The notes below the pieces were generated by a model. That model had not been told where the DNA came from. It did not search any database and saw only the letters and a list, made by a program, of their open reading frames with translations. A stretch of DNA of 64,000 bases, from the NCBI GenBank assembly GCA_001029295.1, contig LDXJ01000052.1, positions 29 through 64,028 of the forward strand, in the 5' to 3' direction. Made by a program: the position numbers and the translations under genes. The stretch's first letter is position 1. Every line of letters begins with the position of its first letter. This document shows positions 1 to 52,654 of the stretch, in pieces. This DNA comes from Peptococcaceae bacterium CEB3. GTDB taxonomy: Bacteria; Bacillota; Desulfitobacteriia; Desulfitobacteriales; Desulfitobacteriaceae.

Positions 1-356
1 CTTTAAGCTGTGCTCACCGGCAACCCGCTCAATCTCTTGGAACTCATCAAAGACGACAATGAGCTTTTTTTTGTCGGCCTTGGCCAATTGCTCTGGCAGA
101 TCCAGCGCGTCGTCAAACAATTGATCATCCGAAACATTTTTTGCTGTATGTGCAAGGGACAATTCTAACCCTTTGAGCTTAAGGCTCAACTTTGACGAGT
201 GAAGGAAATTCTGTTTAATGTGCTCCAACGTGTTGCTTATTCTTGTCCGGTTCTCAAGGCACCCGTCCATTAAAGCCTTGCTGAACATGTTTTTTTCGGA
301 TAGACGGAACAGATCCACAAAAACTGTATAATGTCCCTCTTCTTTCAACTGCCTCA
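1..356 (-). pseudogene. 3' part of an IS-interrupted AAA ATPase (continues beyond the window)
   Basis: Reading leftwards from the end of the insertion element, one open frame runs to the window edge. It contains a hydrophobic strand followed by acidic residues (LIVVFDEFQEI), a typical Walker B, about 110 codons in. Joined to the piece at 1811-1967 it gives one continuous frame (…LELLRQLKEEGHY…), as in the archaeal-type/AAA_14-like ATPases that start with an RE-x-L segment and a P-loop. The element at 357-1810 separates the two parts. The rest of the gene lies outside the window, so its full length and C-terminal domain cannot be judged. Confidence 0.75.
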
Positions 357-386
357 TTGACCTCCTCCCCGGAATAAATTCCGGGG

Positions 387-520
387 ATTCCCGCCTTCCC
401 TCGTCGGAAAGACAGCGGTGGTACAAGCACCTCTAAGCAATCATTCTGTGACACAGAACCTTTGCCTTACATGTATGCAGCGGATACAACCGAACCGGGT
501 TACGCAAAATCCCCTTATCG
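387..520 (-). ncRNA. Possible omega/reRNA of TnpB at the right end
   Basis: TnpB nucleases use a guide RNA transcribed from the 3' end of tnpB through the right end of the element. The stretch from the last codons of tnpB through the 46 bp after its stop and up to the right-end hairpin is the expected location. This is placement by family knowledge only; I did not derive a secondary structure. The guide would be read from the flanking DNA just below position 357, that is, from the interrupted ATPase gene. Confidence 0.3.
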
Positions 521-1713
521 ACAAGACTTAAATCGGTGTCCGGGAATGCCTTGCGCAAAATATTGGCCGAACCGTTCAGATCGGCATTAATCACTTGACC
601 TTTCCCAGATCGGTACAACCCACGGCTAATCCGCCGACCACTAAACGTATGCCGGACCCCGGCTTGATACTCGGGAATTTCATCCCGGTCCAAAAAGCTG
701 GATTTCGATGTGTACGATTCGGTAATCTCCAGGTATTGAATCCCGTTTTTCTCGCAAAGGTACCCAAGAAACCGGCGAAACTTCCAATAAGGAATCTGAA
801 CGAAATTCTGGTTGTTCCTGTGCCCAATATTAATGTTTTGCTTCCATCCGGGGTTTACCCCAACCACTACAGTCCCAATCCTGTACTGTAGGCAATGTTT
901 AACAATTAGGTGTGCTGATTTACTCATGTAGTCTCGGATGAAGTTTTCTCGGTTAAAAGCGATAGCGGCTAGGCGGTTTGTTTCGGTCTTAATGCCCTGT
1001 AAATCCTTGACAGATTGAAGCCGAGATCGTTCTTTGTTATACCATTGATTTTCCGACTTAATTCGTTTCCCGTCGACTAAAAAGGACTGTCCCAGCGTAT
1101 CAATACACGAAGCAAAATTATTTACGCCAAGGTCAATAGACAAAATATCATCCCGCAGGGGTGTTGGACGGACATCCATTTGATAGACAAACTCCGCTTC
1201 TAGAAAACGGGCTTGATGTTTCGGGTTGATCCGTACCTCGCGGATCGGCAAACCGTTCAGGCGGTCTGGAATCCCGATCTTAATGGGTGAAAAAGAGTTT
1301 TGTCTAGACATCGGCACCTGGAAAAATCCGTCATGAATACTGATCGCATTCGTTGAGCAAACAATGGGGTAATACCCATCCTTGGGCAAGTATTTAGGGA
1401 TTGAAACCTTTTCTGTGGGATATTTCCCCTTAACGGCCAACCGCTTGAGAGACAGAAAAGATTTCATAGCCTCATGCGCTTTACGAAGTGTTTGCTGGGA
1501 TACTCCTGCTTGAAGCATGGCATAGCTCTCGTTTGCCTTGGCACTTTTATACAATTTGTTAAACCCCAACAATTTCCCCGTCTTAAAGAAATGCTGGCGC
1601 AAGGTATAAAGTGCCACGTTATACAGGTTTTTGCTGTACCGGCTCAACTGTCTTAATGTCTCAAACTCCTCTCGGGTTAATTTCTTGACTCTCATCGTTT
1701 GGGTAGCGAACAT
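433..1713 (-). CDS. tnpB: TnpB RNA-guided nuclease (OrfB/IS605 family), zinc-finger-less variant
   Basis: A 426-residue TnpB. The RuvC-like catalytic residues are present: D194 in SIDLGVNN, E332 in EITESYTSKSSF and D378 in NADLNGSAN. The CxxC…CxxC zinc finger that normally lies between E and the last D is absent; this segment is DRDEIPEYQAGVRHTF followed by a basic stretch. The start at 1713 was chosen because AGAGGTGG lies four bases upstream; the longer frame from 1752 would translate the leader repeat. TnpB cleaves DNA guided by its reRNA and helps retain the element at its site. Its 18-bp upstream core repeat is shared with Tad genes and the adhesin gene of this replicon. Confidence 0.9.
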   Translation of the reverse strand: MFATQTMRVKKLTREEFETLRQLSRYSKNLYNVALYTLRQHFFKTGKLLGFNKLYKSAKANESYAMLQAGVSQQTLRKAHEAMKSFLSLKRLAVKGKYPTEKVSIPKYLPKDGYYPIVCSTNAISIHDGFFQVPMSRQNSFSPIKIGIPDRLNGLPIREVRINPKHQARFLEAEFVYQMDVRPTPLRDDILSIDLGVNNFASCIDTLGQSFLVDGKRIKSENQWYNKERSRLQSVKDLQGIKTETNRLAAIAFNRENFIRDYMSKSAHLIVKHCLQYRIGTVVVGVNPGWKQNINIGHRNNQNFVQIPYWKFRRFLGYLCEKNGIQYLEITESYTSKSSFLDRDEIPEYQAGVRHTFSGRRISRGLYRSGKGQVINADLNGSANILRKAFPDTDLSLVDKGILRNPVRLYPLHTCKAKVLCHRMIA

Positions 1714-1752
1714 AAAACCACCTCTCATATATAGGTGGTTTTTGTCCAACAA
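1714..1752 (-). repeat. Gene-boundary repeat copy A, upstream of tnpB
   Basis: Contains the 18-bp core TGTTGGACAAAAACCACC (complement of 1734-1751). In RNA of the minus strand, AAAACCACCT (1733-1742) can pair perfectly with AGGTGGTTTT (1714-1723) across a 9-base loop, burying the tnpB ribosome binding site. The whole 40-base leader is nearly identical to copy G at 37351. Confidence 0.9.
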
Positions 1753-1810
1753 ACGCCCGTGGGTGTTTTCATCCCCGGAATGAATTCCGGGGTTTTCAAC
1801 ACCCTATCCT

Positions 1811-1967
1811 ATAATTCCAGGACTATGGATGTCTTGTCAATCCGGCGCGGCCCTGCAAGAACAAGGTTTTGGCCCATAAGCAAACGGGATTTTATTGTTC
1901 TTAAGAAATCCTCCCGGTCGATAATTTCCTCTTTCGGGACCGGCATTCCAAATGGGAACAGGTTCAT
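1811..1967 (-). pseudogene. 5' part of the IS-interrupted ATPase, P-loop altered
   Basis: Starts at ATG 1967 with an ideal AAGGAGGTG ribosome binding site and a textbook promoter upstream. It encodes about 52 residues up to the insertion: a conserved RE-x-L segment and a P-loop read as GPRRIDKTS. Relatives have G before K (RIGKTS); here a GAC codon replaces it, which should damage nucleotide binding. So the gene carries a likely loss-of-function substitution in addition to the insertion. A tight palindrome overlaps its -10 box, so it was probably repressed by an element-encoded regulator. Confidence 0.75.
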
Positions 1968-1980
1968 AATATCACCTCCT

Positions 1981-2015
1981 TGTGATATTATATCACACTA
2001 CTGTGTATATCGCAA
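1981..2015 (-). promoter_or_regulatory. SigA-type promoter with palindromic operator
   Basis: On the minus strand TTGCGA (2010-2015) and TATAAT (1987-1992) are 17 bp apart. The -10 sits inside the palindrome TGTGATATTATATCACA (1981-1997), with a strong ribosome binding site directly after it. This is the cleanest copy of the AT-rich operator motif found in front of many genes here. Confidence 0.8.
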
Positions 2016-12917: not shown

Positions 12918-12972
12918 TCAAATTTCGCTCCCTTTCTTTTTGATTTAAAGACCGCCTTGCCAAAAAAGTTCC

Positions 12973-13009
12973 CCTCACTAATAGGTGGTTTTTGTCCAAC
13001 AAAAACTTA
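12973..13009 (-). repeat. Gene-boundary repeat copy B, upstream of the Flp-like gene
   Basis: 18-bp core at 12984-13001. With the adjacent bases it matches copy C (13984-14021) over about 37 bp apart from a one-base indel. The two copies are in the same orientation and flank only the antirepressor gene. Confidence 0.9.
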
Positions 13010-13015
13010 GAGGGA

Positions 13016-13921
13016 TCATTCGCCGGCGTTATCCACTAAGTCGCTATTAACCTCGGCGGACCCTTTCTGTGCCAGAAAATCCCTAACTGTGCCCACGGTC
13101 TTTTCTGACCAAAAAATCTGGAATCCTTCCCATTTCCCAATTGTCATCTGTTTAGACGAATCCTGCATTATGCCGAAGTCCTTGCCCTTTTCCGTGAGCC
13201 GCCAAGGATTTCGTTTGACAAGACGCTCTTTTGTTTTTCCGGCTTCCCGGATACCGTACTGCAAACCCATCTCTTCAAGTAGCAGGTTGACCTTGTTTGC
13301 TTTGAGATTGAACTGCGCTCCTATTTGACTTGGTGTGAGCAGTTCCGCATTCTGCTCTTCGACGGCTGGCAGTTCCTTTCTGTAGTCGGCCAATTGCTTC
13401 CCCGTTTCTTTCTCAATACGGGCAAGTGCAACTGCAACAGCTCGCTCGGGCCGGATACCCACGGCTTTAGCAAATTCTTTTGCGAAACGAATTTCACCGA
13501 TGGCGACACGATCCCATGTGATCACCGGTCTCTTTTTTCTTGCGAGAAATGCGTCTGCCAACGCGTCTTTTGCGTGAAGTTGAAAATCAATTAATTTCTG
13601 CTGAATTTCTGGTGCATCAATGATATTTGCATTAATTTTTGCAAGCCAAAGGGGGAGAAAGTCTAATTCGAGACATAGAACTTCTTGGTTGCCTCCCTGT
13701 GTAGGGAGTCGCATTTTTGCAATACCTTTTGAGAGCACAACATCTTCATTTAATTTTCGAGTTTGATTCTGATACTGTCCATCACTCAGGCCAATTCCGC
13801 TACAAACCCATTTGACCGCTATTCTAATCTTCCCGTCGTTACATTTAACCGCCATGATCTCCGCTCCGTTGAAATCAACGAGCTTTTGTTCTACGGGAGC
13901 CAATGCCTCTGTTTTTTCCAT
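13016..13921 (-). CDS. Phage-type antirepressor (P22_AR_N-like)
   Basis: 301 residues. The N-terminal ~110 residues (VDFNGAEIMAVKCNDGKIRIAV…GIGLSDGQYQNQ) match the pattern of P22-type antirepressor domains; the middle and C-terminus have helix-turn-helix-like segments (LLTPSQIGAQFNLKANKVN) and a lysine-rich end. Antirepressors bind and inactivate phage repressors. It interrupts the Tad order between TadC and the Flp-like pilin and is bracketed by same-direction copies of the boundary repeat, so it looks inserted as a unit. Start ATG 13921 with AAAGGGG. A possible target is the CI-like regulator at 33214. Confidence 0.75.
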   Translation of the reverse strand: MEKTEALAPVEQKLVDFNGAEIMAVKCNDGKIRIAVKWVCSGIGLSDGQYQNQTRKLNEDVVLSKGIAKMRLPTQGGNQEVLCLELDFLPLWLAKINANIIDAPEIQQKLIDFQLHAKDALADAFLARKKRPVITWDRVAIGEIRFAKEFAKAVGIRPERAVAVALARIEKETGKQLADYRKELPAVEEQNAELLTPSQIGAQFNLKANKVNLLLEEMGLQYGIREAGKTKERLVKRNPWRLTEKGKDFGIMQDSSKQMTIGKWEGFQIFWSEKTVGTVRDFLAQKGSAEVNSDLVDNAGE

Positions 13922-13983
13922 TTGTCAGCCCCTTTCCAGAGTATGGGGGAGGGGATGATTGTTCGTCTCCCCGTGAAAGACTC

Positions 13984-14021
13984 CCTCACTATATAGGTGG
14001 TTTTTGTCCAACAAAAACTTA
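13984..14021 (-). repeat. Gene-boundary repeat copy C, between tadC and the antirepressor
   Basis: 18-bp core at 13996-14013, extended similarity to copy B. The stop codon of tadC overlaps its outer edge (TAAGTTTTTG). Confidence 0.9.
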
Positions 14022-14843
14022 ATGACCCAGCGCCCCTGCCGGCAAAGTCCCCATCAGGCTGACAAAAATATGATAAAAATATGGCACCATACCGACGATC
14101 ATCGCCACCATCATGGAAATCCCGGCGTAAACTGTCATTGGCGTAGTAGCCCGTTTCAGCTTGTACCGCTTTTGCATCCCCTTTAAGTGATTCATGTGTT
14201 CGCTCAAATCCCCGAACGGAACCTGTGGGACTCCCTCTTTGGCATACGAGACAAGGCGCACGAGAACGGCCGTTAAATCCCGGTTGTCGATCCGATCGGC
14301 AAAAGACATGAGTGCTGTCTCTAGCGATACCCCCGATTGCGTCATGGCCACAATACGTTCCCACTCGGCGGCCATTCCGCCTTTAAGCAGCGCCGCAATA
14401 TTTTCAACGGCTTTCACCGGAATATCCCCGGTATCCAAGCGGATTTTGAGATATGTCACCAGGTCGGGAACATCCGCTATAATATCTCTGGCCCAGCTTT
14501 GGTAAATAGCCGAATACCGCAAATACGATAAAAGATATCCCAGCCCGATCCCGACGAATCCGAAGAAAATATTCGTAAACGCGGCCAGCATCAACACGGG
14601 CATCACGGCCATGAAAACAATTGTTTCCAAAAAATATTTACTGGGGTCAACCCCAATGGTCTCCAGCCGGCCCTTTAATTTTTTATTTCCGATGAGTTCC
14701 CCCAAATGAGTGACTCTCTGTTTCAAAGACACCTTTTGGGTCCCAACGAGTACTTCTCGGCGCCGCATTTCGGCCCGGTTAAAGGACAATTTGTGGTATA
14801 TTCCAAAGGCTATCAATAGAGCTGATAAAACAGAAAGAAACAT
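14019..14843 (-). CDS. tadC: TadC-like pilus inner-membrane platform protein
   Basis: 274 residues with a T2SSF-type domain: an N-terminal helix, paired helices around residues 88-125, a cytoplasmic helical bundle (DVPDLVTYLKIRLDTGD…GGMAAEWERI…SLETAL) and a C-terminal helix (around 240-262). TadB and TadC form the membrane platform on which the TadA motor acts. It follows tadB by 18 bp with GAGGGGGAGG upstream of the ATG. Length is normal for the family. Confidence 0.85.
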   Translation of the reverse strand: MFLSVLSALLIAFGIYHKLSFNRAEMRRREVLVGTQKVSLKQRVTHLGELIGNKKLKGRLETIGVDPSKYFLETIVFMAVMPVLMLAAFTNIFFGFVGIGLGYLLSYLRYSAIYQSWARDIIADVPDLVTYLKIRLDTGDIPVKAVENIAALLKGGMAAEWERIVAMTQSGVSLETALMSFADRIDNRDLTAVLVRLVSYAKEGVPQVPFGDLSEHMNHLKGMQKRYKLKRATTPMTVYAGISMMVAMIVGMVPYFYHIFVSLMGTLPAGALGH

Positions 14844-14861
14844 TTTAACCTCCCCCTCTGG

Positions 14862-15776
14862 TCAAATCGTCACCCTCAACCTGGAGAATTTTCGGATCCC
14901 ATGGAAAACGATCACCGACCCTACAGCGCTCAATATCGGCACCCAAGCCAAGTGAGTCGGCACAGGCTTGTATACCGCCGGATCGAGGAAGCGGTATATG
15001 AACATCACGGCCGGATTCACGGCAAACATCACGATCGTGAACATCATATACATAAAAATCTCGCCCCTGGTCTCCGCCTGCATGGATTCTTCCTCACGGA
15101 ATTTCCAGTCAAGTTCCCGGAACCCTTGTGTTTTAGCGCCGCTGACCCGCACGGTTTTTACCAAATCCACAAAAAAGCTAAACGACGGGTGGTCCACATC
15201 TTTTGCCAGCACATCCAGGGCCGCGGCCTCATTTTCCCCGGCCGCCAACCGGCGCAAAAACGCCGCGGTATACCGTTCCATCGGCGGCTCTTTCACCGCT
15301 TTCGCGGCTGTTTCCAAGGCGTCCCTAATCGTCCGCCCGGCAAAAAAGACGTCGTTAAATGAACTTACGAAAACGGAAATTTGCTTTTGGAGCACGTTGA
15401 GGGCTTTTGAACCTTTTTGCTCAAACCACATGCCCGGCAGCTGATAAGCCAGGGTCGCCATAATCAAAGCGGAGAAAAAATTTAAAGAAACAAAATACCA
15501 AACAAAGAACCCGATAAGCGCCGCCACTGTCGAGATATTTTTGAAACGTATCAGCGAGACGTCCAGAATCCTCAGCGACTGGAGGGTGGCTACTTTTGAT
15601 TTCCGCAGTTTTTTCTCTTTTTTGGCCCTCTGTTTATGCGCCTTGGCCGCCTTTTCTTTTGGTTTCCGCCTGGCCATGAGCTCGTCATGATGTGTGGGTT
15701 TGCGGATAAAATGCACAAGGACAATCCCGTCCGCAAAGCTCAAAAGAAATAACAAAGCCGTAATCAAAACGTTCAC
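14862..15776 (-). CDS. tadB: TadB-like pilus inner-membrane platform protein
   Basis: 304 residues: N-terminal helix, a very basic linker (about 32-66), helices around 78-118, a T2SSF bundle (FVSSFNDVFFAGRTIRDALETAAKAV) and C-terminal helices. The gene order TadA-TadB-TadC is the canonical one. GTG 15776 overlaps the tadA stop (GGTGA); because the ribosome binding site touches it, TTG 15767 is an alternative start. Confidence 0.85.
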   Translation of the reverse strand: MNVLITALLFLLSFADGIVLVHFIRKPTHHDELMARRKPKEKAAKAHKQRAKKEKKLRKSKVATLQSLRILDVSLIRFKNISTVAALIGFFVWYFVSLNFFSALIMATLAYQLPGMWFEQKGSKALNVLQKQISVFVSSFNDVFFAGRTIRDALETAAKAVKEPPMERYTAAFLRRLAAGENEAAALDVLAKDVDHPSFSFFVDLVKTVRVSGAKTQGFRELDWKFREEESMQAETRGEIFMYMMFTIVMFAVNPAVMFIYRFLDPAVYKPVPTHLAWVPILSAVGSVIVFHGIRKFSRLRVTI

Positions 15777-17080
15777 CCCCTTAATTGAATCTCCAATTGC
15801 CTTTCTGGAGAAAGGTCCGCCAGTTTTTGATGGGTTTTTGTCACAGGATCCAAGGCAAATAACGTCGTAAAAGGCTCCCCGTTTTTGCCCCGTTCGGAAT
15901 CAATGGGGTTAACTTCGACGATTTGAGTGATTTTCCGGCTGCCGTCTCGGAATCGGTCGATAAAGACCATGATGTGAATTTGTTCGCGAATGAACTCCTC
16001 TAACGACTCCCGGTCCATATCCATCTGTCCCGACAACTTGAGGTAAAACATCAGCAAGAACACAGCCCTCTTCGGGTTCCCGGCGTGCATCGTCGTAATA
16101 GGCCCTGGGTGGCCGGACGCGGTGGTCCGTAAAAACGGCGCGGCCTCTTCGCCTCGAATTTCCGAAACGCAGACCCGGTCCGGACGTTTCCGCATCGCCG
16201 CCTTAAACAGCTTAGACATAGTAATGCTTTGTTCTTCGTTCTCGCGTTCCACGGTTTGCAAGCTCAAAAACCGCTTTTTCCGGGCATTCGTTTCCCGTGT
16301 GTCCTCGATGAAAATTACATATTCATCGTCTGAAATCCCTTCCTCAATCAATTCCCGCACCAGCGCGGTTTTACCGGATCCGGTCCGGCCAAAAACCATG
16401 ACCGTAAGCCGGTTCCGGACGGCATTGAGCAGAAATTCCATTTCCTCTTCAGAGGCACTGCCCAGATTGACGAAATCCTTAGCGCTGAAATAGCGAGTCT
16501 GCGAAGCGGCTTTCCGGACATTAACCGTGATATATTCCGTGACCGGCGGCCGAGTAGCCTGTATCCGTTCACCGTCCCGCGTCTCCATATCCAAAAGAGG
16601 AGTATTTTCGTCAAAATGTCTTTTCCCGTCGGACATAACCATAATATGGGTATCAAACCAGAGGCTTAAATCCTCGGCATCCGCAAATGACTCGCGCACA
16701 TCATAGAGCGTCCCGCCCTTCTCGATCATAATGGTGTGAGGACCATTAATGATGATTTCGGTTATCTCTCCGTCTTTACGGTATTTTTCTAAAAACCCAA
16801 ACCCGAACAGATCATCCAGGACCATCTGGAGCAATTTGCCCTTCTCCGACTCCAAGAGCGACTGTTCTTGAACCAGAACCCTAATTTTACTTTCGATCTC
16901 TTTCCGGTGTTCCCACTTTGCTCGGATTAAATCATCCCGAACCAATTGTTCCCGAATTGCTGCCATCGCGGTTTGGATCGGGTCTTGTGAAGGGTTGGCA
17001 CGAGCCTTGATGATGGCCTCTTCTTGCAAATTTATGCCTGTTGTGACGACTTTCTCGGTTATAAGATTAATCTTAGGCAT
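15773..17080 (-). CDS. tadA: TadA/CpaF-type pilus assembly ATPase
   Basis: About 435 residues of a secretion ATPase of the GspE/VirB11 class. Walker A GRTGSGKT is near residue 233; downstream come EDTRE, the Asp-box-like RKRPDRVCVSEIRG and the His-box ASGHPGPITTMHAG. It powers extension (and perhaps retraction) of the Tad pilus. ATG 17080 is chosen for its GGGGGA ribosome binding site; the longer frame from 17122 begins inside the upstream gene. A second, truncated gene of this family lies at 52702. Confidence 0.9.
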   Translation of the reverse strand: MPKINLITEKVVTTGINLQEEAIIKARANPSQDPIQTAMAAIREQLVRDDLIRAKWEHRKEIESKIRVLVQEQSLLESEKGKLLQMVLDDLFGFGFLEKYRKDGEITEIIINGPHTIMIEKGGTLYDVRESFADAEDLSLWFDTHIMVMSDGKRHFDENTPLLDMETRDGERIQATRPPVTEYITVNVRKAASQTRYFSAKDFVNLGSASEEEMEFLLNAVRNRLTVMVFGRTGSGKTALVRELIEEGISDDEYVIFIEDTRETNARKKRFLSLQTVERENEEQSITMSKLFKAAMRKRPDRVCVSEIRGEEAAPFLRTTASGHPGPITTMHAGNPKRAVFLLMFYLKLSGQMDMDRESLEEFIREQIHIMVFIDRFRDGSRKITQIVEVNPIDSERGKNGEPFTTLFALDPVTKTHQKLADLSPERQLEIQLRG

Positions 17081-17094
17081 ACCCGCTTTTCCCC

Positions 17095-18324
17095 CTATTT
17101 GATCCCCAACAGGCTTTTCCAAAAGCCATTTTTCTTAACCCTCTTGGCTTGATTAAACGCCTTGCTGCCCTTGGCCCCCCAATCCAAGGGACTCAATATC
17201 TCCCAGACGTCCCGCCAGGCCGCGGGAATGTTTAATTTCCGGTCATTTATCATCCGATAATACCCCTCGGGATCTGCCGGAACCGTAGCAATTAAGGGAA
17301 TTCCGGTCGTTTCGGCAATCTCGACGTCTTTAACCCCGGCTGTGGGCACGTATTTGTTGATAATGAGTTTGAGTTTACCCGCGACGTCTTTTAACCCTTG
17401 GAGATTTTGCGTCCGTGTGATAAAACGCATTAATTTTTCCTCGGCTTTGATGGTCGGCTCCCCAATCAAAATAATGGTGTCAACCTCTTGCAGCGTTTTG
17501 TACACCGACAGCTCGGAAAGCTGGGGCGGCAAGTCATAAATCACGGTGTCATACGCTTGGCTGTTAACCCAGCTATAGAGATTGGCGATATTGTCTTCAT
17601 CACATTTCATGCCCAGCGTATCGGCACCAATCGGTAAAACGGCGATATCATCCACCTTTTGTAAGTATCCCTGGACCCTTTCCCGAAAAAGGTCATATTG
17701 TTCCCACTCCTCGTCCAGAATGCTTCCCAAGCCTTCCGTAACCGGCGGCGCCCCCAGAGCCTGCAAAACACCCGCGTTGTCGTTGTCTGATTCGACAATG
17801 CAGACGGAATGCCCGGACTCTTGAGCCAGTTTGCCGATCATGACTGAGGCGGTCGTTTTGCCGATCCCGCCCAACGGGGAATAACAGGCTATTTTTAACC
17901 GGGTTTTCGGTTTGACAACTGGCACAAGACTAACGTTCGAGTCCTCCGATTCGACAAAATTCCAGGCAAACTCGTCGTCCGCGTGATCACCGTCCAAAGT
18001 CCGCCGAATCCACCCGGACACATTTTCAGCCGGCGCCAAGTATAATAAATTTGCCTCGGCGATCTTTTCTAGGTCCGAAGCACCTAAAGTGTCACAGACT
18101 TGATTATTGGCATAAATGATTCCGACTTGAGCTTGACCCGGGGTATACCCGGATAAATCCAAAGCTTGTTTGCGGAAAATAATATGGACTTCCGCACTGG
18201 GGACCGCGCTAAACCCGGATAACATGGGGACAATAATCGGATTTCCGCCGTTTTCCCGTACCAGTTCGGCGACACGTTCGACCCCCGAACTGGTCTGCGG
18301 CCCACAAATAACCACCGTTTTCAT
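17095..18324 (-). CDS. TadZ/CpaE-like ParA-type ATPase with intact P-loop
   Basis: 409 residues. An N-terminal receiver-like domain (about 1-120) is followed by a MinD/ParA domain with the deviant Walker A SPLGGIGKTTA near residue 150. TadZ/CpaE proteins place the Tad machine in the cell. The ATG at 18324 overlaps the stop of the preceding, related gene (TTTGATG) with GGAGGTGG upstream. Having two such proteins in a row, one with and one without the signature lysine, suggests a heteromeric positioning unit. Confidence 0.8.
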   Translation of the reverse strand: MKTVVICGPQTSSGVERVAELVRENGGNPIIVPMLSGFSAVPSAEVHIIFRKQALDLSGYTPGQAQVGIIYANNQVCDTLGASDLEKIAEANLLYLAPAENVSGWIRRTLDGDHADDEFAWNFVESEDSNVSLVPVVKPKTRLKIACYSPLGGIGKTTASVMIGKLAQESGHSVCIVESDNDNAGVLQALGAPPVTEGLGSILDEEWEQYDLFRERVQGYLQKVDDIAVLPIGADTLGMKCDEDNIANLYSWVNSQAYDTVIYDLPPQLSELSVYKTLQEVDTIILIGEPTIKAEEKLMRFITRTQNLQGLKDVAGKLKLIINKYVPTAGVKDVEIAETTGIPLIATVPADPEGYYRMINDRKLNIPAAWRDVWEILSPLDWGAKGSKAFNQAKRVKKNGFWKSLLGIK

Positions 18325-19415
18325 CAAATCCCACCTCCGATGACGACCTGCGCGGCCTTAATTATTTTTGTGAGAGATTTTTTGATCTGCCCAGTCGTTT
18401 TCCCGTGAGCCACCTGTTCCCAATCGGCCGAGTCTTTGATCGGGAATTCCGCTTTGATACCGGTCAGCAATTCAAGTTCGCCCGGATCGCCCCCGCGCAT
18501 AACCCAACCGGGAATTATCCGGGTCCAATGAGCCTCCCTGGACATAACCGCAAACCGGACGGCCGAATCCACGGCGACCGGCGAGGCTCCGGCGACCGGG
18601 AATACTTTATTGGCCATCCAAAGCGCCGCGTTCGCCAGGGGAAAGGTGAGATCGCTTCCGGCATCCACCACCACGTAGCCGGAACGCCGACTGGCCCAAC
18701 GATAAAGCTCTTTAGCCGCCGGCAGCGTCCAGTGGGTTTTCCCATGTAAATTCCCCGCCGCCGAAATCGGCAAGATCTCCAACCCTTTGCGAATTTCCGT
18801 GAGGTACGGGCCCATCGTGGCTTCGCCGATTTCGTCCGGGGAAATATCCGAAAAGGTATCCAGTCCCTGCTTAGCCGGCGATTGACCAAACATCCTAGCG
18901 AGACTGCCCCCGCTGCGGGCGGCCTCAATGACCATGACAGGGATCCCTTGGGCATAGAGCTCCCTCGCAACCGCCGCTGACACAGACGAGACCCCCAAGC
19001 CGCCCTTCGTCCCCAAAAACACGATGATCTGATTTGCGGCCACCATTTGCGGGACCGGGCTGTGGGCATGTTCAAAAAAACTCCGTTTGCGCTCTATCGC
19101 CTCGACGAATACGTCTTTAGCCGGTGGGGCGTTCCAGGAAAAATCCTCCTCGACCGTGACGGACAGCTTGTTGGCTGTGTCCTCATTAACCGATATGGCA
19201 TAAGGGCCCCCGGGTTCCAACGTCCGAAACATCACTTCAAAATGCCCCTCTTCGTTGGTAAAGCCCGTTTCCGCTTTAGAGGCAATTTGGGCCTTGACTT
19301 CGGCATTAATCCGGGGCTGACCCGCCGAGTCCAGAAAATAGCCGCTGACTTTGAACGGACATGACACCGTAACCGATCCCGTATGTTCATGGTTGACTTG
19401 AATCCCAACCCACAT
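18324..19415 (-). CDS. CpaE-like MinD-family protein with N-terminal Ig-like domain and degenerate P-loop
   Basis: 363 residues. The first ~95 residues look like a carboxypeptidase-regulatory/Ig-like beta domain (VSGYFLDSAGQP…TGFTNEEGHFEV). The rest is MinD-like: FLGTKGGLGVSSVSAAVA near residue 135, where the usual GK[ST] lysine is Val. CpaE/TadZ proteins often have such atypical P-loops. Start ATG 19415 has GAGGGGG upstream inside boundary repeat copy D. A domain normally found on extracytoplasmic proteins fused to a cytoplasmic ATPase is unusual. Confidence 0.7.
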   Translation of the reverse strand: MWVGIQVNHEHTGSVTVSCPFKVSGYFLDSAGQPRINAEVKAQIASKAETGFTNEEGHFEVMFRTLEPGGPYAISVNEDTANKLSVTVEEDFSWNAPPAKDVFVEAIERKRSFFEHAHSPVPQMVAANQIIVFLGTKGGLGVSSVSAAVARELYAQGIPVMVIEAARSGGSLARMFGQSPAKQGLDTFSDISPDEIGEATMGPYLTEIRKGLEILPISAAGNLHGKTHWTLPAAKELYRWASRRSGYVVVDAGSDLTFPLANAALWMANKVFPVAGASPVAVDSAVRFAVMSREAHWTRIIPGWVMRGGDPGELELLTGIKAEFPIKDSADWEQVAHGKTTGQIKKSLTKIIKAAQVVIGGGI

Positions 19416-19419
19416 CGTT

Positions 19420-19456
19420 AAAAACCCCCTCACTTATAGGTGGTTTTTGTCCAACA
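19420..19456 (-). repeat. Gene-boundary repeat copy D, between the HD-GYP and CpaE-like genes
   Basis: Core at 19439-19456. The HD-GYP frame is read through the core (C-W-T-K-T-T-Y-K) and stops at TGA in the loop, directly before the GAGGGGG ribosome binding site of the next gene. Confidence 0.9.
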
Positions 19457-20038
19457 AGCGACAACGTCTGGATCAAATTTTATCCCCGCTAATTTTTTGA
19501 TATAGCCGAGTGCATCGTCCCCCGACCACGGGGGGGCATAAACCCTATGGGATACCAATGCATCATAGACATCGGCAATGGTCACGATACGGGCGAAGGG
19601 GTGAATTGCCTTATCGCTAAGCCCCCTAGGGTAGCCCGAACCATCCCAATTTTCGTGGTGCTGCAAAATAATCGCCTTTGATGCCGACGGCAAGGGCGGA
19701 CTGATCTCATAGCCTTTTTCCGGATGTTGCCGGACAACGAGAATTTCTTGGCTGTCCAAAGACCCCGGTTTTGTTAAAATTTCTTGAGGAACAAAAAGTT
19801 TACCAATGTCGTGCAGCAAGGCTCCGTAGCCCAGTTGCCTCAGTTGTTCATCCGAATATTTGGCCTCAATACCCAGCAATAAGGCCAGCTGGTACACGTT
19901 CACACTGTGCAAATAGGTGTACTCGTCCCATGCTTTTAACGCATCCAGAATAGGAAACTGGGACAGATTGATACGCTCCAAAAAGGCCACCCCTTCGGTT
20001 AAAAAGTTAAAATACGGAAAAAACCGGTTCCAAACCAA
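19430..20038 (-). CDS. HD-GYP c-di-GMP phosphodiesterase
   Basis: 202 residues, essentially a stand-alone HD-GYP domain: HSVNVYQLALLLG, LLHDIGK, HHENWDGSGYP and IVTIADVYDAL are all present. HD-GYP enzymes hydrolyse c-di-GMP, so this is the natural counterpart of the GGDEF protein at 9194. Its last residues are encoded by boundary repeat copy D, so the ribosome finishing this gene opens the next one. Start is TTG 20038. Intact motifs suggest activity; a role in resetting pilus or channel function is inference. Confidence 0.85.
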   Translation of the reverse strand: MVWNRFFPYFNFLTEGVAFLERINLSQFPILDALKAWDEYTYLHSVNVYQLALLLGIEAKYSDEQLRQLGYGALLHDIGKLFVPQEILTKPGSLDSQEILVVRQHPEKGYEISPPLPSASKAIILQHHENWDGSGYPRGLSDKAIHPFARIVTIADVYDALVSHRVYAPPWSGDDALGYIKKLAGIKFDPDVVACWTKTTYK

Positions 20039-20094
20039 TGTCCTAAGACCATAAACAAAACGAGCGCAATGAGAAAAACAAGCAAAGTGAACAA
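19999..20094 (-). CDS. Possible single-helix membrane peptide (31-37 aa)
   Basis: Between repeat copy E and the HD-GYP gene a short frame encodes almost only hydrophobic residues (LFTLLVFLIALVLFMVLGHW) and stops just inside the HD-GYP gene. Start codon unclear: TTG 20094 or the non-standard ATC 20112 that directly follows AGGGGGAG. Real expression is uncertain. Confidence 0.35.
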   Translation of the reverse strand: MFTLLVFLIALVLFMVLGHWFGTGFFRILTF

Positions 20095-20114
20095 CCCATC
20101 CGACGTTTTGATCT

Positions 20115-20142
20115 CCCCCTAATTAGTGGTTTTTGTCCAACA
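20115..20142 (-). repeat. Gene-boundary repeat copy E, after the glycosyltransferase gene
   Basis: Core at 20125-20142, 17 of 18 bases conserved (last base differs). The upstream gene stops at TAG inside it, immediately before GGGGGAG. Confidence 0.85.
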
Positions 20143-21441
20143 CGAAACTTTGCCATCGTCATAAACCTGGTGCCAACCGGGTAACAGCCAGATTTGATCG
20201 GCAACGATGCTGTGATTCGGGAACACCATATATTTCGCGTTTGGAATATCCACGCGTAAAAGTCTCCTCAAGGGATATTGCCCCACCAGGGTTTCAAAGT
20301 AATGGTCGTACCAAGACTGTCCGAGCCAGATGTCCCGTCCGTCACAAATGGGTTTCAACCCAGCCATTTCCATGGTTGAGCCGTATTCGTACTGATTCAG
20401 CACCCGAACCGCATGAACGGACTTTAAATATTGAACCGCCTGATATTCCACCGGACGGGCAAACGGCTGAGTGATCCAGATTGGAGTCGTCATCAAAAAA
20501 ACACTGAAAACCCCGACAGTGACAAGCGCCATAACCTTTTTTAATGCCGGGGTGAGAGGCGGACATTCAATCACAAGCATGTCGATGATCGCCGAATAAA
20601 TTCCCAGCCGCCGCGAGAACAAAAAGGCCGCGGTGCCAAAAAACACCCAGAGCTTGGACCGTAAATCCCCCCGCTTTATCACTTGGTACCCGGCAATCAA
20701 AGCAAAGCCAATGACAATCCAGGGGAGTGCCCCATGAAAATTCGGCGACCGGTATTCCGGGATCAAAAGGCTCAACCGGTTGCCCTGCATTTTCGTAAAG
20801 GCCACCAGGGACCCGAGACTCGTGGGACTCACAAAAAAGCCGCCGAGCGAAATAAACCACGGCTTCCAGAGCGTCCGCCAATCTCGCTGAATCAAAGTCT
20901 CGATCCCCAGCAGTCCGAGCCATAAAATGGCGGAGGCATGGGTGTTATTCCAGGGAATAACCAAAAGTGACAACAGGGAAAGGTTCCGGCCCCTCAATAT
21001 CCCAACAAGGGCTATCGCGAAAAAGAGATAAGAGAATATTTGCGGTCTGACCACGGCGGCCGACCCCGCCGCAAAGAAAAAGCAGAGCCAAAGCCAACCG
21101 AACTCAGGTATTTTGAGCCGGGAGTGCCACAGGATGAGCCCAAAAAGGCAGCCATATACCACGACCACCAGCCAGCGATCCCCGGCCCATCCGAACAGGG
21201 AATAGATCCACCCCGCCAACAGGTCAAAGCCCCATTCCGCGTTGGCCCACGGAGTGTCCGGCGCTTTCCAGGTAAACCCGTCCCGGTGTAAAATCGCGTG
21301 ATGCCGCAGCATCCAAAGGCCGTTGTGGACGTGCCAGCCGGGATCGTAAGCCCAGCCGCCAATACCGGCGAAACCCCAGGCGATGACCAGTCCGGCCCCA
21401 AATAAAATAAGCTTGCCCCACTGTTTTTGTCGGATTGACAT
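20119..21441 (-). CDS. Polytopic GT-C-like glycosyltransferase
   Basis: 440 residues with about ten hydrophobic segments. The N-terminal pattern, a helix followed by acidic/His residues (YDPGWHVHNGLWMLRHHAIL) and then NAEWGFDLL, is that of GT-C fold membrane glycosyltransferases using lipid-linked sugars. A soluble C-terminal region follows from about residue 340. Placement in a pilus locus suggests modification of pilin or adhesin. The start at 21441 is set by GAGGGGTGG in repeat copy F; the C-terminus (…CWTKTTN) is encoded by copy E, so this gene is bounded by repeats on both sides. Confidence 0.7.
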   Translation of the reverse strand: MSIRQKQWGKLILFGAGLVIAWGFAGIGGWAYDPGWHVHNGLWMLRHHAILHRDGFTWKAPDTPWANAEWGFDLLAGWIYSLFGWAGDRWLVVVVYGCLFGLILWHSRLKIPEFGWLWLCFFFAAGSAAVVRPQIFSYLFFAIALVGILRGRNLSLLSLLVIPWNNTHASAILWLGLLGIETLIQRDWRTLWKPWFISLGGFFVSPTSLGSLVAFTKMQGNRLSLLIPEYRSPNFHGALPWIVIGFALIAGYQVIKRGDLRSKLWVFFGTAAFLFSRRLGIYSAIIDMLVIECPPLTPALKKVMALVTVGVFSVFLMTTPIWITQPFARPVEYQAVQYLKSVHAVRVLNQYEYGSTMEMAGLKPICDGRDIWLGQSWYDHYFETLVGQYPLRRLLRVDIPNAKYMVFPNHSIVADQIWLLPGWHQVYDDGKVSCWTKTTN

Positions 21442-21444
21442 TGG

Positions 21445-21482
21445 AAAACCACCCCTCACAGAAAGGTGGTTTTTGTCCAACA
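21445..21482 (-). repeat. Gene-boundary repeat copy F, upstream of the glycosyltransferase gene
   Basis: Core at 21465-21482. AAAACCACC (21445-21453) and GGTGGTTTT (21465-21473) can form a nine-pair stem that includes the downstream ribosome binding site. Confidence 0.9.
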
Positions 21483-21673: not shown

Positions 21674-21704
21674 GAAAGCGTCACCCCCCCCCCTTCCCCT
21701 TTAA

Positions 21705-21852
21705 TTTGCCCTGGGACCTCATTGTTTGCCCCGTTCTGCCGTTGGACATTGATGCCGGCATGAATTGTACTGCTTAGATATTCAAATACTATACGGGGCA
21801 AATACGAGGCGCTTGTTCAATTTTGTACAACGTTCACATCAAATATTATCAA
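21705..21852 (-). repeat. Duplicated promoter/leader block, copy 1 (before the PspC gene)
   Basis: About 148 bp closely similar to 22088-22234, both oriented toward a minus-strand gene start 15-32 bp further on. At the upstream end TTGATAATATTTGAT precedes TGTACAAAATTGAAC, a plausible promoter with an operator-like motif. The rest is a leader of about 110 bases ending in GGGGCAAACA…GGGCAAAT. Confidence 0.75.
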
Positions 21853-22073: not shown

Positions 22074-22087
22074 CCTCCCCCTTTTGA

Positions 22088-22234
22088 TTTGCCCTGAGAC
22101 CGTGCTGTTTGCCCCATCCTGCCTTCGGATATTGATACTGGCATGAACTGTACCGTTTGGATATTCAAATACCACTCGGGGAAAATATGAGGTGCTTGTT
22201 CAATTTTGTACACACTCATATCAAATATTATCAA
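22088..22234 (-). repeat. Duplicated promoter/leader block, copy 2 (before the 21849 gene)
   Basis: About 147 bp, the partner of 21705-21852. TTGATAATATTTGATATGAG at the upstream edge and a conserved leader follow. No known riboswitch consensus was recognised. Confidence 0.75.
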
Positions 22235-22240
22235 ACCGGG

Positions 22241-23041
22241 TCATGCATATGCCACATCCCGCCCTATGGCCACAAGATTTGTATGCCGACTATATACAAT
22301 CGGCTTGTTATACTCCGCACAAAGCGCTTTTGCCGTCCACATAGCGTGATGCCCGATGTGCTCCGTTAACACAACGATGATGTCGCACGCTTTTATGAAA
22401 CCTTCGTATTCGCTCAGATTTTCCCGCCCCGTCATCGTCGTTACATTAGGATATTTGTCTCGAAAAACATTTTTCCCACGATAGCCTCCAATGATGCCGA
22501 TCTTTTTCGTTGTCAGCAATTCCCATGTGTCCGGGCTGGGTTCCTCTCCATCCCCGGCTACACTGTCCTCTAATTCCGCCGCGGGCGGCAAATCCTCGTT
22601 TTTGGGCTGTAATCGCTTAATTTCGGCCCGCATATCGGAAATTAACGCTTTGAAATTTTCCAGTTTTTCTTGACTCCGGGCAGGGGCCGCCTTCAAATCA
22701 GCAATCGTCTGCTTTAGGCGAACCTGTTGGTCTTCCAGTTCTTTGATTTCGCAATGCGCGGCGGCCAGCTTTTTTTCCAAAACCGCCCGTTTGACCCGTT
22801 CGTCCCGAATCATTACCTTTTTCTTGCGGATCTCCTTTTTGATATTTTCGATCTGGTTTATTTCGCGCTGGAATTGCCGGAATCGAGGCGTATTCACGAT
22901 ATATTCGAAAATGCTGTCAATGACAGCACTAAACTCGGGAGAAAATTTGACCCAACTCGGGTCATATTTTTTGCTCGCCCACGTCGATGCGCATAAGCTT
23001 AGCTCTTGCTCTATGGTCTTTATCGCTTTTTGATCGATCAC
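22241..23041 (-). CDS. Coiled-coil protein with C-terminal DUF2325 domain
   Basis: 266 residues. A long charged helical region (about 55-145, IKKEIRKKKVMIRDE…) is followed by an acidic linker and a DUF2325 domain (IGIIGGYRGKNVF … CDIIVVLTEHIGHHAMWTAK … KPIVYSRH) with conserved histidines. DUF2325 proteins are small Rossmann-like proteins of unknown activity found often on plasmids. GTG 23041 overlaps the dnaE stop (GTGA), so the two are coupled, suggesting a role near replication. Nothing more specific can be said. Confidence 0.75.
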   Translation of the reverse strand: MIDQKAIKTIEQELSLCASTWASKKYDPSWVKFSPEFSAVIDSIFEYIVNTPRFRQFQREINQIENIKKEIRKKKVMIRDERVKRAVLEKKLAAAHCEIKELEDQQVRLKQTIADLKAAPARSQEKLENFKALISDMRAEIKRLQPKNEDLPPAAELEDSVAGDGEEPSPDTWELLTTKKIGIIGGYRGKNVFRDKYPNVTTMTGRENLSEYEGFIKACDIIVVLTEHIGHHAMWTAKALCAEYNKPIVYSRHTNLVAIGRDVAYA

Positions 23042-26037
23042 GTAAATAACACCCCCATCAGTTCGTTATTAATGTTGACGTTTTCCCTTGTCTCCGTTTC
23101 GTCCTCGTCCACCGGCGTGACGCTGCTCAGGATATACTCGTTTTCCCCCCGCGTGGACAGCGTCGCGATCATGACATAGCGATGGTTTTTGGTGACCAGG
23201 CCGACGGTTTCCTTGAATGACATGACGGTTAAAATCTCGGAGGCCGTTAACACTTTAAGCGTCGCCATGGGGTCTCCCTTTCTAGTTCGGCGGTTCTGGA
23301 TTTCGATCGGAACGCCTACGCACTGATAGCGGCCACCCCCGATATCCTTGAAGTCCTCAAGGCCGGAGTCCCCGAAAAATAGTCCCGTAACTTGGAATTG
23401 CCGCATAGGGCTTTGGCTGGGCCGACCCAAACATTCCAAGGCGCCGGCATCCGTCAGCAAAGAGCACGTTTTAGTGGTCAATAATTTCCCCAGTTTGATG
23501 CCGAGCTCGGCAAAGCTTTGAAACGGGGAATACCGGGTAATCACCTCGACAACGTCTTTACGTAGACCTTTGATCCCGCGTAATCCAAACCGTATCCCCC
23601 GGTGGTCGGCCGACGGGGCAAAGCCAAAGCCGTCCGACTCATTGACGCTGGGTGGAAAAATCTCCACTCCCAAGGCACGGATCATGTGCGTATGAGCATT
23701 AAGTTTGTCGTATTTCCCGAGCATCCCCGTCAAATAGGCGGAATAGAACTCCAATGGGTAATAATGGGCCAAATAGGCGGTCCGATAACCAATTTCGGCA
23801 TAGGCCGCGGCATGGCTTTTGTTAAACCCATACTCGGCAAATCGCTCCAGCATCACCCATAACTGATCCACTTTGACTTGAGACATTCCCCCTTCTAAAC
23901 ACCCTTTATAAAACTTAGGCTTAAGCTCCGCAATAATTTCCGGCTTTTTTTTGCCCATTCCTTTGCGGAATTTATCCGCCTCGGACGGGGTGAAGCCGGC
24001 CAATTGCTTGGTGATCTCCATGACCTGTTCTTGATAAACAATTGTCCCGTACGTCTCCCGCAAAATCGGCTCCATCCTCGCATCTATGAGATCGATTGGC
24101 TGACGGCCGAATTTGCGTTCAATCATGCCGGGGATTTCGCTTAGCGGACCCGGCCGATACATAGCGTTTAAGGCCACTAGGTGTGTTTGGCTATTCGGCA
24201 CGAACGCTTTGACCACGTTTATTATCCCCTGCGACTCGAATTGAAAAACCCCAACCGTCCGCCCGGCGGCCAAGTCGCTGAAAATATCGGGATCATTTGG
24301 CTGGAAATTGACGCGCCGGCCAAGGTGCCGTTCCGTCTCTTTGATGACATCCAGGGATTCCAGGCCGAGGATGTCCATTTTGACCAACCAGTCCTCGACT
24401 TTTGACCCCTCCCACTGTGTCACAATCTCGTCCCCGACTTTCGCCAAGGGCACCTCGGTCAGCATAGGCCGGGGGCTGATAGCGAACCCGCACGCGTGAA
24501 CCCCGCGGTGCCTAGGCAATTTCAGCAGCATGTATGAGCGTTCCAGTGCTTGTTTTAAAACCGGGTGTTGGGCTAAGAGCTTATTCGCCAGGGCCGCGTC
24601 CTCGAATTCGCCCGGCACGACGGAATTCAATGTTTTGGAAAACTCAATGGTCAGCGCCGGCCGGATACCGAGGGAACGGGCCGCGTCCTGGAAAGCGCTG
24701 CGCGGCTTAAATTCGCTGAAATTGATGATCCGGCACGTATTTTGTTCTCCGTATTTTTGCCGCAAATATTGAAAGACCTCGTCCCGCCGGGCGGACTCAA
24801 AGTCCATGTCCACGTCCGGCATGGACACCCGTCCGGGAGCCAAAAAGCGTTCAAAGAGCAGTCCGTTGGACAATGGCTCGATGTCTGTGACCCTGAGCAA
24901 ATACATGACGATGGAACCTGCGGCGCTTCCCCGGCCGGGGCCGGTGTAAATATCCTGTTCGCGGGCGAAACGGATAATGTCATAAACGATGTAAGCGTAG
25001 TCCAGCATGTTCATGTCTTTGTACACGCCAAGTTCAAACGCAAAGCGCTCGTTCACCGCCGGCCACTCGTCCGGCGCATAGAGCAATTGCATGTTTTTCC
25101 CGCACTCTTGCCGGATAAACGCCTCAACGTCCGGCACATCCGCACGGGGGACTCGATCGGGGATTTCCGGATTCGTGAGTTCCGCCTTCGAACACCGCTC
25201 CGCGATTTCAAGAGCTCGGGTCAAATACGTTACGGGAAAAATTTCGGCCATTTCGTCGTAAGAGCGGAAATGGCAGTTGGGACATCCCCGCGACTCTTTG
25301 CCATTCCGGATGGTATACAACAAATTTTGGACGGACACATCCTCGGGCCTCAAATAATGCACGTCATTTGTGGCCACGATGGGCGCCCCGGTTCGTTCGG
25401 ACAGTTTGGGCATCGTTTCCAAAACCTTGAGCTCTTCTTCCAGGCCATGATTCATGGTCTCCAGGTAAAAATTGTCCGTCCCGACGATTTCCTGGTAACC
25501 GCGAACCAGGGCGACCGCGGCGTCCATATCGCCCTGGAGCAAAGCTTGCGGGATTTCCCCCTGCACGCATGCGCTCAGGAGGATAATCCCCCGACTGTGC
25601 TCTTTGAGCATGAGCTTGTTGATTCGGGGTTTGCGATCGAGACCCTCCAAATAACCCCGTGTGGACAGGGCGATGATGTTTCCAATCCCTTCGTTGGTCT
25701 CCGCCAAAGCGACCAAATGGTTCCGCCCCAGGTAAAATTCGCAGCCATAAATCGGATGAACCCCGGCTTTGGCGCACGCGTCCCGAAACTCCGGCCAGGC
25801 AGATAGATTTCCATGATCTGTAATAGCCAAATACTCCATACCGTTGTCCGCCGCCGCTTTGACCAAATCCGCGGGCATGGCCCCGCCGTCCAATTCCGAA
25901 TACCCGGAGTGCACGTGCAAATGGGCAAAGGGCGGGGAGTCTGGATCGGGAGTGGGGACGGGGGCAACCTTATTTGTGACTGGCTCCACCCGTAATATCT
26001 GCTTCTCAAAAGACTCTAGAGATCGTTGGGCCAACAT
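23038..26037 (-). CDS. dnaE: DNA polymerase III alpha subunit (DnaE type)
   Basis: 999 residues. The N-terminal PHP domain (HLHVHSGYSELDGG, ITDHGN) is followed by the polymerase core with GRGSAAGS and the catalytic PDVDMDF near residue 408, the fingers region, HhH motifs and a short OB-like C-terminus (TRKGDPMATLKVL). It is about 100-150 residues shorter than cellular DnaE and likely the element's own replicase. ATG 26037 has GGAG upstream. The promoter region (26077-26092) carries the AT-rich operator motif. Confidence 0.9.
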   Translation of the reverse strand: MLAQRSLESFEKQILRVEPVTNKVAPVPTPDPDSPPFAHLHVHSGYSELDGGAMPADLVKAAADNGMEYLAITDHGNLSAWPEFRDACAKAGVHPIYGCEFYLGRNHLVALAETNEGIGNIIALSTRGYLEGLDRKPRINKLMLKEHSRGIILLSACVQGEIPQALLQGDMDAAVALVRGYQEIVGTDNFYLETMNHGLEEELKVLETMPKLSERTGAPIVATNDVHYLRPEDVSVQNLLYTIRNGKESRGCPNCHFRSYDEMAEIFPVTYLTRALEIAERCSKAELTNPEIPDRVPRADVPDVEAFIRQECGKNMQLLYAPDEWPAVNERFAFELGVYKDMNMLDYAYIVYDIIRFAREQDIYTGPGRGSAAGSIVMYLLRVTDIEPLSNGLLFERFLAPGRVSMPDVDMDFESARRDEVFQYLRQKYGEQNTCRIINFSEFKPRSAFQDAARSLGIRPALTIEFSKTLNSVVPGEFEDAALANKLLAQHPVLKQALERSYMLLKLPRHRGVHACGFAISPRPMLTEVPLAKVGDEIVTQWEGSKVEDWLVKMDILGLESLDVIKETERHLGRRVNFQPNDPDIFSDLAAGRTVGVFQFESQGIINVVKAFVPNSQTHLVALNAMYRPGPLSEIPGMIERKFGRQPIDLIDARMEPILRETYGTIVYQEQVMEITKQLAGFTPSEADKFRKGMGKKKPEIIAELKPKFYKGCLEGGMSQVKVDQLWVMLERFAEYGFNKSHAAAYAEIGYRTAYLAHYYPLEFYSAYLTGMLGKYDKLNAHTHMIRALGVEIFPPSVNESDGFGFAPSADHRGIRFGLRGIKGLRKDVVEVITRYSPFQSFAELGIKLGKLLTTKTCSLLTDAGALECLGRPSQSPMRQFQVTGLFFGDSGLEDFKDIGGGRYQCVGVPIEIQNRRTRKGDPMATLKVLTASEILTVMSFKETVGLVTKNHRYVMIATLSTRGENEYILSSVTPVDEDETETRENVNINNELMGVLFT

Positions 26038-37318: not shown

Positions 37319-37352
37319 AAATATCCGACGGCCAGAACCGTCGGATATTTTT
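37319..37352 (+). terminator. Strong intrinsic terminator after tubZ
   Basis: AATATCCGACGG/CCGTCGGATATT with a six-base loop, followed by TTTTTG. Boundary repeat copy G begins inside the T-run, leaving no room for a normal promoter before the next gene except within the repeat. Confidence 0.9.
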
Positions 37353-37390
37353 GTTGGACAAAAACCACCTATATATGAGAGGTGGTTTTT
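37351..37390 (+). repeat. Gene-boundary repeat copy G, upstream of the adhesin gene
   Basis: Core TGTTGGACAAAAACCACC at 37352-37369, then TATATATGAG and AGGTGGTTTT. The stem AAAACCACCT/AGGTGGTTTT contains the ribosome binding site. The only plus-strand copy; almost identical to copy A of the TnpB element. Confidence 0.9.
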
Positions 37391-52580: not shown

Positions 52581-52654
52581 GCCGACTTAATTTAATGGCA
52601 GAATAGCTGCCCTGTAAGCAGCGAGTTTCGGTTCGAGTCCGAAAGTCGGCTCCA
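52581..52654 (+). tRNA. tRNA-Thr (anticodon TGT), with C at position 33
   Basis: Acceptor GCCGACT/AGTCGGC (7 pairs), four-pair D-stem, anticodon stem GCTGC/GCAGC with loop CCTGTAA, T-arm TTCGG/CCGAA with TTCGAGT loop, and an encoded CCA after discriminator T. The anticodon reads TGT. Position 33, almost always U, is C here, so function is uncertain. It sits between two tRNA fragments, so the cluster has decayed. Confidence 0.8.

Follow-up and report, generated by a model that had tools for sequence, protein, structure and literature searches.

Short asymmetric repeats placed before genes have been described in several groups of phages. In cluster K mycobacteriophages, the start-associated sequences (SAS) and extended start-associated sequences (ESAS) keep one orientation and go with the translation starts of some genes, which belong to different families (PMC3203893). 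Microbacterium phages of clusters EC and EI carry 18-bp asymmetric intergenic motifs, those of cluster EC lying 22–30 bp before start codons (PMC7302621). The stoperators of cluster A mycobacteriophages are 13 bp long and are bound by the phage repressor at more than 20 sites (PMC9283540), and gene 14 of phage Corndog is flanked by a 17-bp direct repeat that is present once in relatives (PMC4351075). Here we describe a repeat with an 18-bp core, found in seven copies on a plasmid of Peptococcaceae bacterium CEB3, in a window of 64,000 nucleotides (positions 29–64028 of contig C52) taken from a draft genome of 64 contigs and 5.3 Mb. This one genome is our sample, and our reading is drawn from sequence rather than from expression. 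We give a probability of about 0.5 to the view that the repeat is a start-associated leader built from a gene–gene junction: the end of a glycosyltransferase-like gene, together with the ribosome-binding junction next to it, would have been copied ahead of other units and kept there as a cis-acting leader.

With the copies numbered 1 to 7 by coordinate, the core is exact at 1734, 12984, 13996, 19439 and 21465 on the minus strand and at 37352 on the plus strand, and is matched at 17 of 18 positions at 20125 (minus strand, copy 5). A search of the window allowing up to three mismatches returned seven matches, against 0.07 expected, and bore out the copies listed by the first-pass annotation, six of them exact and one 17/18. 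The most frequent 13-mers of the entire replicon fall within the core. The two ends of contig C52 share an exact overlap of 1,765 bp (window 1–1765 and C52:109147–110911), which makes a circular replicon of about 109.1 kb probable; because of this overlap, a further exact match at C52:110880 is copy 1 again. The first-pass annotation had proposed searching the replicon and its relatives with mismatches. All other sites of the replicon have at least four mismatches to the core, and among 60 relatives only two-mismatch chance matches were found. In a search of the whole genome with up to two mismatches, C58 was the sole further contig with a match; it has two mismatches and looks like chance. 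Neither an exact search of viral contigs nor short-query searches of phage and plasmid records found the core, and no near relatives of the plasmid were found, the closest Tad loci being 30–40% identical. An exact 16-mer query of a 257-Gb collection of genome contigs gave at least 110 scattered matches, all without the downstream unit; our own arithmetic puts the chance expectation for such a query at about 120. A 13-nt match to the core also occurs at L010:2958–2970 (C52:86958), antisense to a radical SAM gene whose mRNA could pair with the core; it is probably due to chance.

Alignment of the seven copies shows that conservation does not stop at 18 bp but reaches about 13 nt beyond the core. 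From 5' to 3', an 18-nt invariant block is followed by TATNNR, TGAGGGG (the Shine–Dalgarno sequence, present as GAGGGG or GAGAGG), T-rich sequence and, in the best-kept copies, a start codon. The 13 nt after the block fit TATNNRTGAGGGG, with 17 of 91 cells departing from the column majority, where random columns would give about 50. The flanks to the left are unrelated and agree no better than chance, 70/140 cells differing from the majority. The only change within the block itself is a single base in copy 5. With the glycosyltransferase copy left out, the core has 0 changes in 108 positions, compared with 10 in 78 just downstream (p = 1e-4). Copies 1 and 7 match perfectly over approximately 40 nt, and copies 2 and 3 are nearly identical over 39 bp that include the bases around the TadC stop. 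Each of the seven copies faces a gene that lies downstream of it and on its own strand, as had been claimed earlier (for a random site to face an open reading frame (ORF) start within 100 nt, p = 0.055), and the distance can now be refined: an ATG lies 20–23 nt past the block in copies 1, 4, 6 and 7. At this distance copy 2 (12964–13001, core 12984–13001, minus strand) has a TTG (12963) opening a leader ORF of 19 aa, which extends over the pilin start (GTG 12917), itself 66 nt past the copy. Copy 3 (13975–14013, core 13996–14013, minus strand) lies 5 nt past the TadC stop and 74 nt ahead of the antirepressor ATG (13921), and the small-peptide start is 30 nt past copy 5. The frame of the block, TGT TGG ACA AAA ACC ACC, meets a stop within three codons in 6/7 copies; in five of them this is the TGA of TGAGGGG, overlapping the Shine–Dalgarno sequence.

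The plasmid repeat resembles the EC and EI motifs in being 18 bp long, asymmetric, present several times per replicon and located in short intergenic gaps. Its spacing before the start is 20–23 nt in four copies, next to the 22–30 bp of the cluster EC motifs. The phage motifs differ in sequence and host, no coding origin has been reported for them, and they are conserved among related phages, whereas our repeat is confined to a single plasmid. Like SAS, it is asymmetric, keeps one orientation (7/7) and contains or adjoins a Shine–Dalgarno sequence. However, SAS is itself a ribosome-binding site 3–7 bp from the start, while the plasmid block precedes the Shine–Dalgarno sequence and stands 30–74 nt before the main start in the three copies with other spacing; conservation over related replicons, as in SAS, was not seen, no relative with the repeat having been found. 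Stoperators are also asymmetric, lie in short intergenic gaps and are oriented with transcription, but they differ in length, in the number of sites and in being bound by a phage repressor, no counterpart of which was identified on the plasmid. Corndog gene 14 recalls the antirepressor unit described below, as a gained gene with short direct repeats at its junctions; it represents a single event, whereas here one sequence recurs at seven junctions. In position and orientation, the plasmid repeat appears to work as SAS and the EC motifs do; it differs from them in its sequence, its restriction to one plasmid and its apparent coding origin.

This origin, a point the first-pass annotation did not foresee, apparently lies in the end of the membrane glycosyltransferase-like gene (20119–21441, minus strand). 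The name comes from that annotation and is unproven, the protein having no Pfam or PHROG match. The gene runs directly into copy 5 (20104–20142, core 20125–20142, minus strand) and ends ...VYDDGKVSCWTKTTN, so that its 3' coding end is the copy, with VSCWTKTTN and a stop as apparently native C-terminal codons; a 31-aa peptide and the HD-GYP gene follow. The closest homologs end ...VYDNASVSVWTKS, ...IYDKKGVAIWQRKSP and ...VYSDDKAEIWERVKG..., giving a family tail of W-[TQE]-[KR], for which the core supplies W-T-K in register. One relative without the repeat has the DNA TTGGACAAAA in register at the place of the core. Given this tail and this relative, the simplest view is that the core of copy 5 is native coding sequence from which the remaining copies derive. 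Copy 4 (19416–19456, core 19439–19456, minus strand) lies at the end of another gene. The HD-GYP gene (19430–20038, minus strand) reads into it and ends within its first codons (CWTKTTYK and a stop); since homologs continue at least 30 residues past the block, the gene has been cut there. The TadZ1 ATG (19415) follows directly.

Copies 2–6 lie in a minus-strand Tad pilus cluster with the order PspC-like gene, glycosyltransferase, small peptide with HD-GYP, TadZ1-TadZ2-TadA-TadB-TadC, antirepressor, pilin and RcpC. Copy 6 (21442–21482, core 21465–21482, minus strand) stands between the PspC-like gene and the glycosyltransferase ATG (21441). The antirepressor gene (P22_AR_N; 13016–13921, minus strand) is inserted between TadC and pilin and is bounded by copies 2 and 3, whereas the conserved block from TadC to TadZ1 (14019–19415, minus strand) has no repeat at its internal boundaries. 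In four relatives, all distant (30–40% protein identity), TadZ1-Z2-A-B-C is followed by a surface protein gene, with pilin before it and RcpC after it where these were detected; as a comparison of gene content suggested earlier now shows, the Tad loci of these four contain neither the antirepressor nor HD-GYP nor the repeat. The Ig-domain surface protein of the plasmid (1214 aa; 37391–41026, plus strand), encoded between pilin and RcpC in relatives, has moved to 37 kb. Copy 7 (37352–37390, core 37352–37369, plus strand) stands in front of it and fills the whole gap from a terminator-like hairpin past a tubulin-like gene to the surface protein ATG (37391); this hairpin is absent from the list of a formal terminator scan.

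The last copy outside the Tad locus, copy 1 (1714–1751, minus strand), lies inside an IS605-type element and comprises the core (1734–1751), the Shine–Dalgarno sequence and a run of T that reaches the ATG (1713) of tnpB (OrfB_IS605; 433–1713, minus strand), for which it forms the leader. The element (window 433–1990) is without tnpA and interrupts an ATPase gene, an intact paralog being present on the same plasmid (C52:103632–104726). The tnpB paralogs elsewhere in the genome share the left-end hairpin yet carry a different leader, or tnpA or its remnant before tnpB, and none has the core; the native leader of tnpB has therefore been replaced by the repeat here. An IS-borne origin of the repeat is rejected on the same comparison.

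Altogether, copies mark the junctions of the antirepressor, HD-GYP, the glycosyltransferase, the displaced surface protein gene and the IS605-type tnpB. A copy is found at 5/6 altered boundaries and at 0/5 conserved ones (p = 0.013, indicative only, as the classification was made post hoc). The data support the view that the repeat marks gained or moved units; the pattern says that the leader came along with, or was required by, the new gene arrangements.

Could the repeat then be a recombination site? The first-pass annotation had considered exchangeable cassettes, and a tie to gene gain and movement stands, relatives being without the repeat, the antirepressor and HD-GYP; the dedicated site itself is not supported. 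A plasmid or host recombinase would join the units and bind the strictly conserved half of the repeat, which would agree with the distribution over boundaries, with the 39-bp likeness of the copies flanking the antirepressor, TadC-stop bases included, and with the two phage-integrase-family proteins encoded on the plasmid. However, neither integrase gene lies near any copy, the surface protein gene is accompanied by a copy on just one of its sides, and none stayed behind in the pilin–RcpC interval from which this gene was lost. The lack of paired inverted arms in the invariant block and the unrelated left flanks speak against a classical site. GTTGGAC fits the GTTRRRY of integron attC sites, but no attC-like structure is found upstream and the conserved part is on the other side. 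The arms of an Xer/pdif or shufflon-type site, ACCACC/GGTGGT, are complete as a hairpin in copies 1, 6 and 7 only. We therefore regard a recombination site as unlikely, if the least unlikely of the alternatives.

In the leader reading, the block most likely descends from the codons that close the glycosyltransferase gene. The gene end with its ribosome-binding junction, approximately 40 bp in all, would have been copied, by whatever mechanism, from there to six places as plasmid genes were gained or moved. Each unit would act as a ready-made 5' junction, which halts upstream translation and hands the next gene a ribosome-binding site, and the block has probably stayed near-unchanged because it also serves as a cis-acting site (promoter, operator or mRNA leader) for a putative factor. 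The copies might instead be passive scars: short fragments from the end of the glycosyltransferase gene that illegitimate or short-homology recombination duplicated as genes were gained, identical because recent and of no use beyond ribosome binding. The coding origin of the core and the truncation of HD-GYP at the block would suit such scars, and the direct repeat flanking a phage gene that is single in relatives gives a precedent (PMC4351075). Nevertheless, all six derived copies start at the same nucleotide, in sense, with the Shine–Dalgarno sequence kept. A retained cis-acting leader is favoured over scars because of this uniform orientation (7/7 sense), the fixed place of the Shine–Dalgarno sequence, the replaced tnpB leader and the invariance of the block where the next 13 nt have diverged; scars as the whole explanation appear improbable, slightly more so than a recombination site. 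The same orientation, Shine–Dalgarno placement and tnpB replacement favour the regulatory leader that the first-pass annotation had named as its second option, although a coding origin was no part of it.

A promoter for a dedicated phage-type RNA polymerase or plasmid sigma factor is very improbable. A continuous conserved block directly before genes, the position of copy 7 after a terminator-like hairpin and a plasmid-encoded 104-aa protein with a sigma-70 region-4-like domain (L010:4264–4578, minus strand), a candidate regulator, would fit it. On the other hand, there is no conserved −35/−10 pair, the core encodes residues of the glycosyltransferase-like protein, and no single-subunit polymerase was found among the large plasmid proteins scanned or by PF00940 in the genome, where the control was likewise silent. 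Three further candidates were rejected: a sigma-A promoter (no conserved hexamers), an RNA hairpin or attenuator conserved among the copies (only copies 1, 6 and 7 fold stably, z about −3, the rest being no better than shuffled sequences) and a core-encoded peptide in all copies (copies 1 and 7 have no in-frame upstream gene, copy 3 no stop).

Several points weigh against the leader reading. The repeat occurs on this plasmid alone, and recent copying could account for part of the identity of the copies. Copies 2, 3 and 5 are without a main start codon at the usual distance, pilin and antirepressor each have a Shine–Dalgarno sequence of their own, and a separate promoter region seems to lie upstream of the Tad operon. 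Neither fitting promoter hexamers nor a binding factor were identified, and a three-residue coding match could in principle be a coincidence.

Other features of the plasmid deserve mention. Upstream of the Tad operon, a 134-nt leader with GGGCAAA motifs is duplicated (window 21696–21829 and 22079–22212, 82% identical). Even with a lax threshold it matched no Rfam family, and it may be a new RNA leader; GGDEF and HD-GYP genes lie nearby. A second motif, TTGATAATATTTGAT, stands before genes at window positions 21838, 22220 and 31057 and at C52:88611, 92317 and 106749, the last followed by a promoter-like pair, TTGACT-17-TATATT; this motif is possibly the operator of another plasmid regulon. As in phage-plasmids, a DNA polymerase III alpha subunit (23038–26037), a topoisomerase II large subunit (55482–57374) and a tRNA-Thr (52581–52654) are plasmid-encoded; an Rfam scan of the window found one tRNA only. 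Just ahead of window position 1, the contig opens (C52:1–28) with GGCAGCGTCAGATGTGTATAAGAGACNN, which matches the Nextera sequencing adapter and is presumably an adapter remnant at the contig end.

One leader sequence connects the plasmid-borne Tad pilus locus, the displaced surface protein and the IS605-type tnpB. As a tentative extension, to which we attach little confidence, the end of a protein-coding gene may have turned into a mobile leader combining a stop, a ribosome-binding site and a control site, joined before gained genes so that each newcomer would enter one regulon. If a start-associated repeat can be followed back to the place where a neighbouring gene stops coding, and to particular gene-gain events, it would offer a concrete case in which to ask about the origin of the many unexplained intergenic phage and plasmid repeats, and about whether such repeats recruit new genes into existing expression programs.

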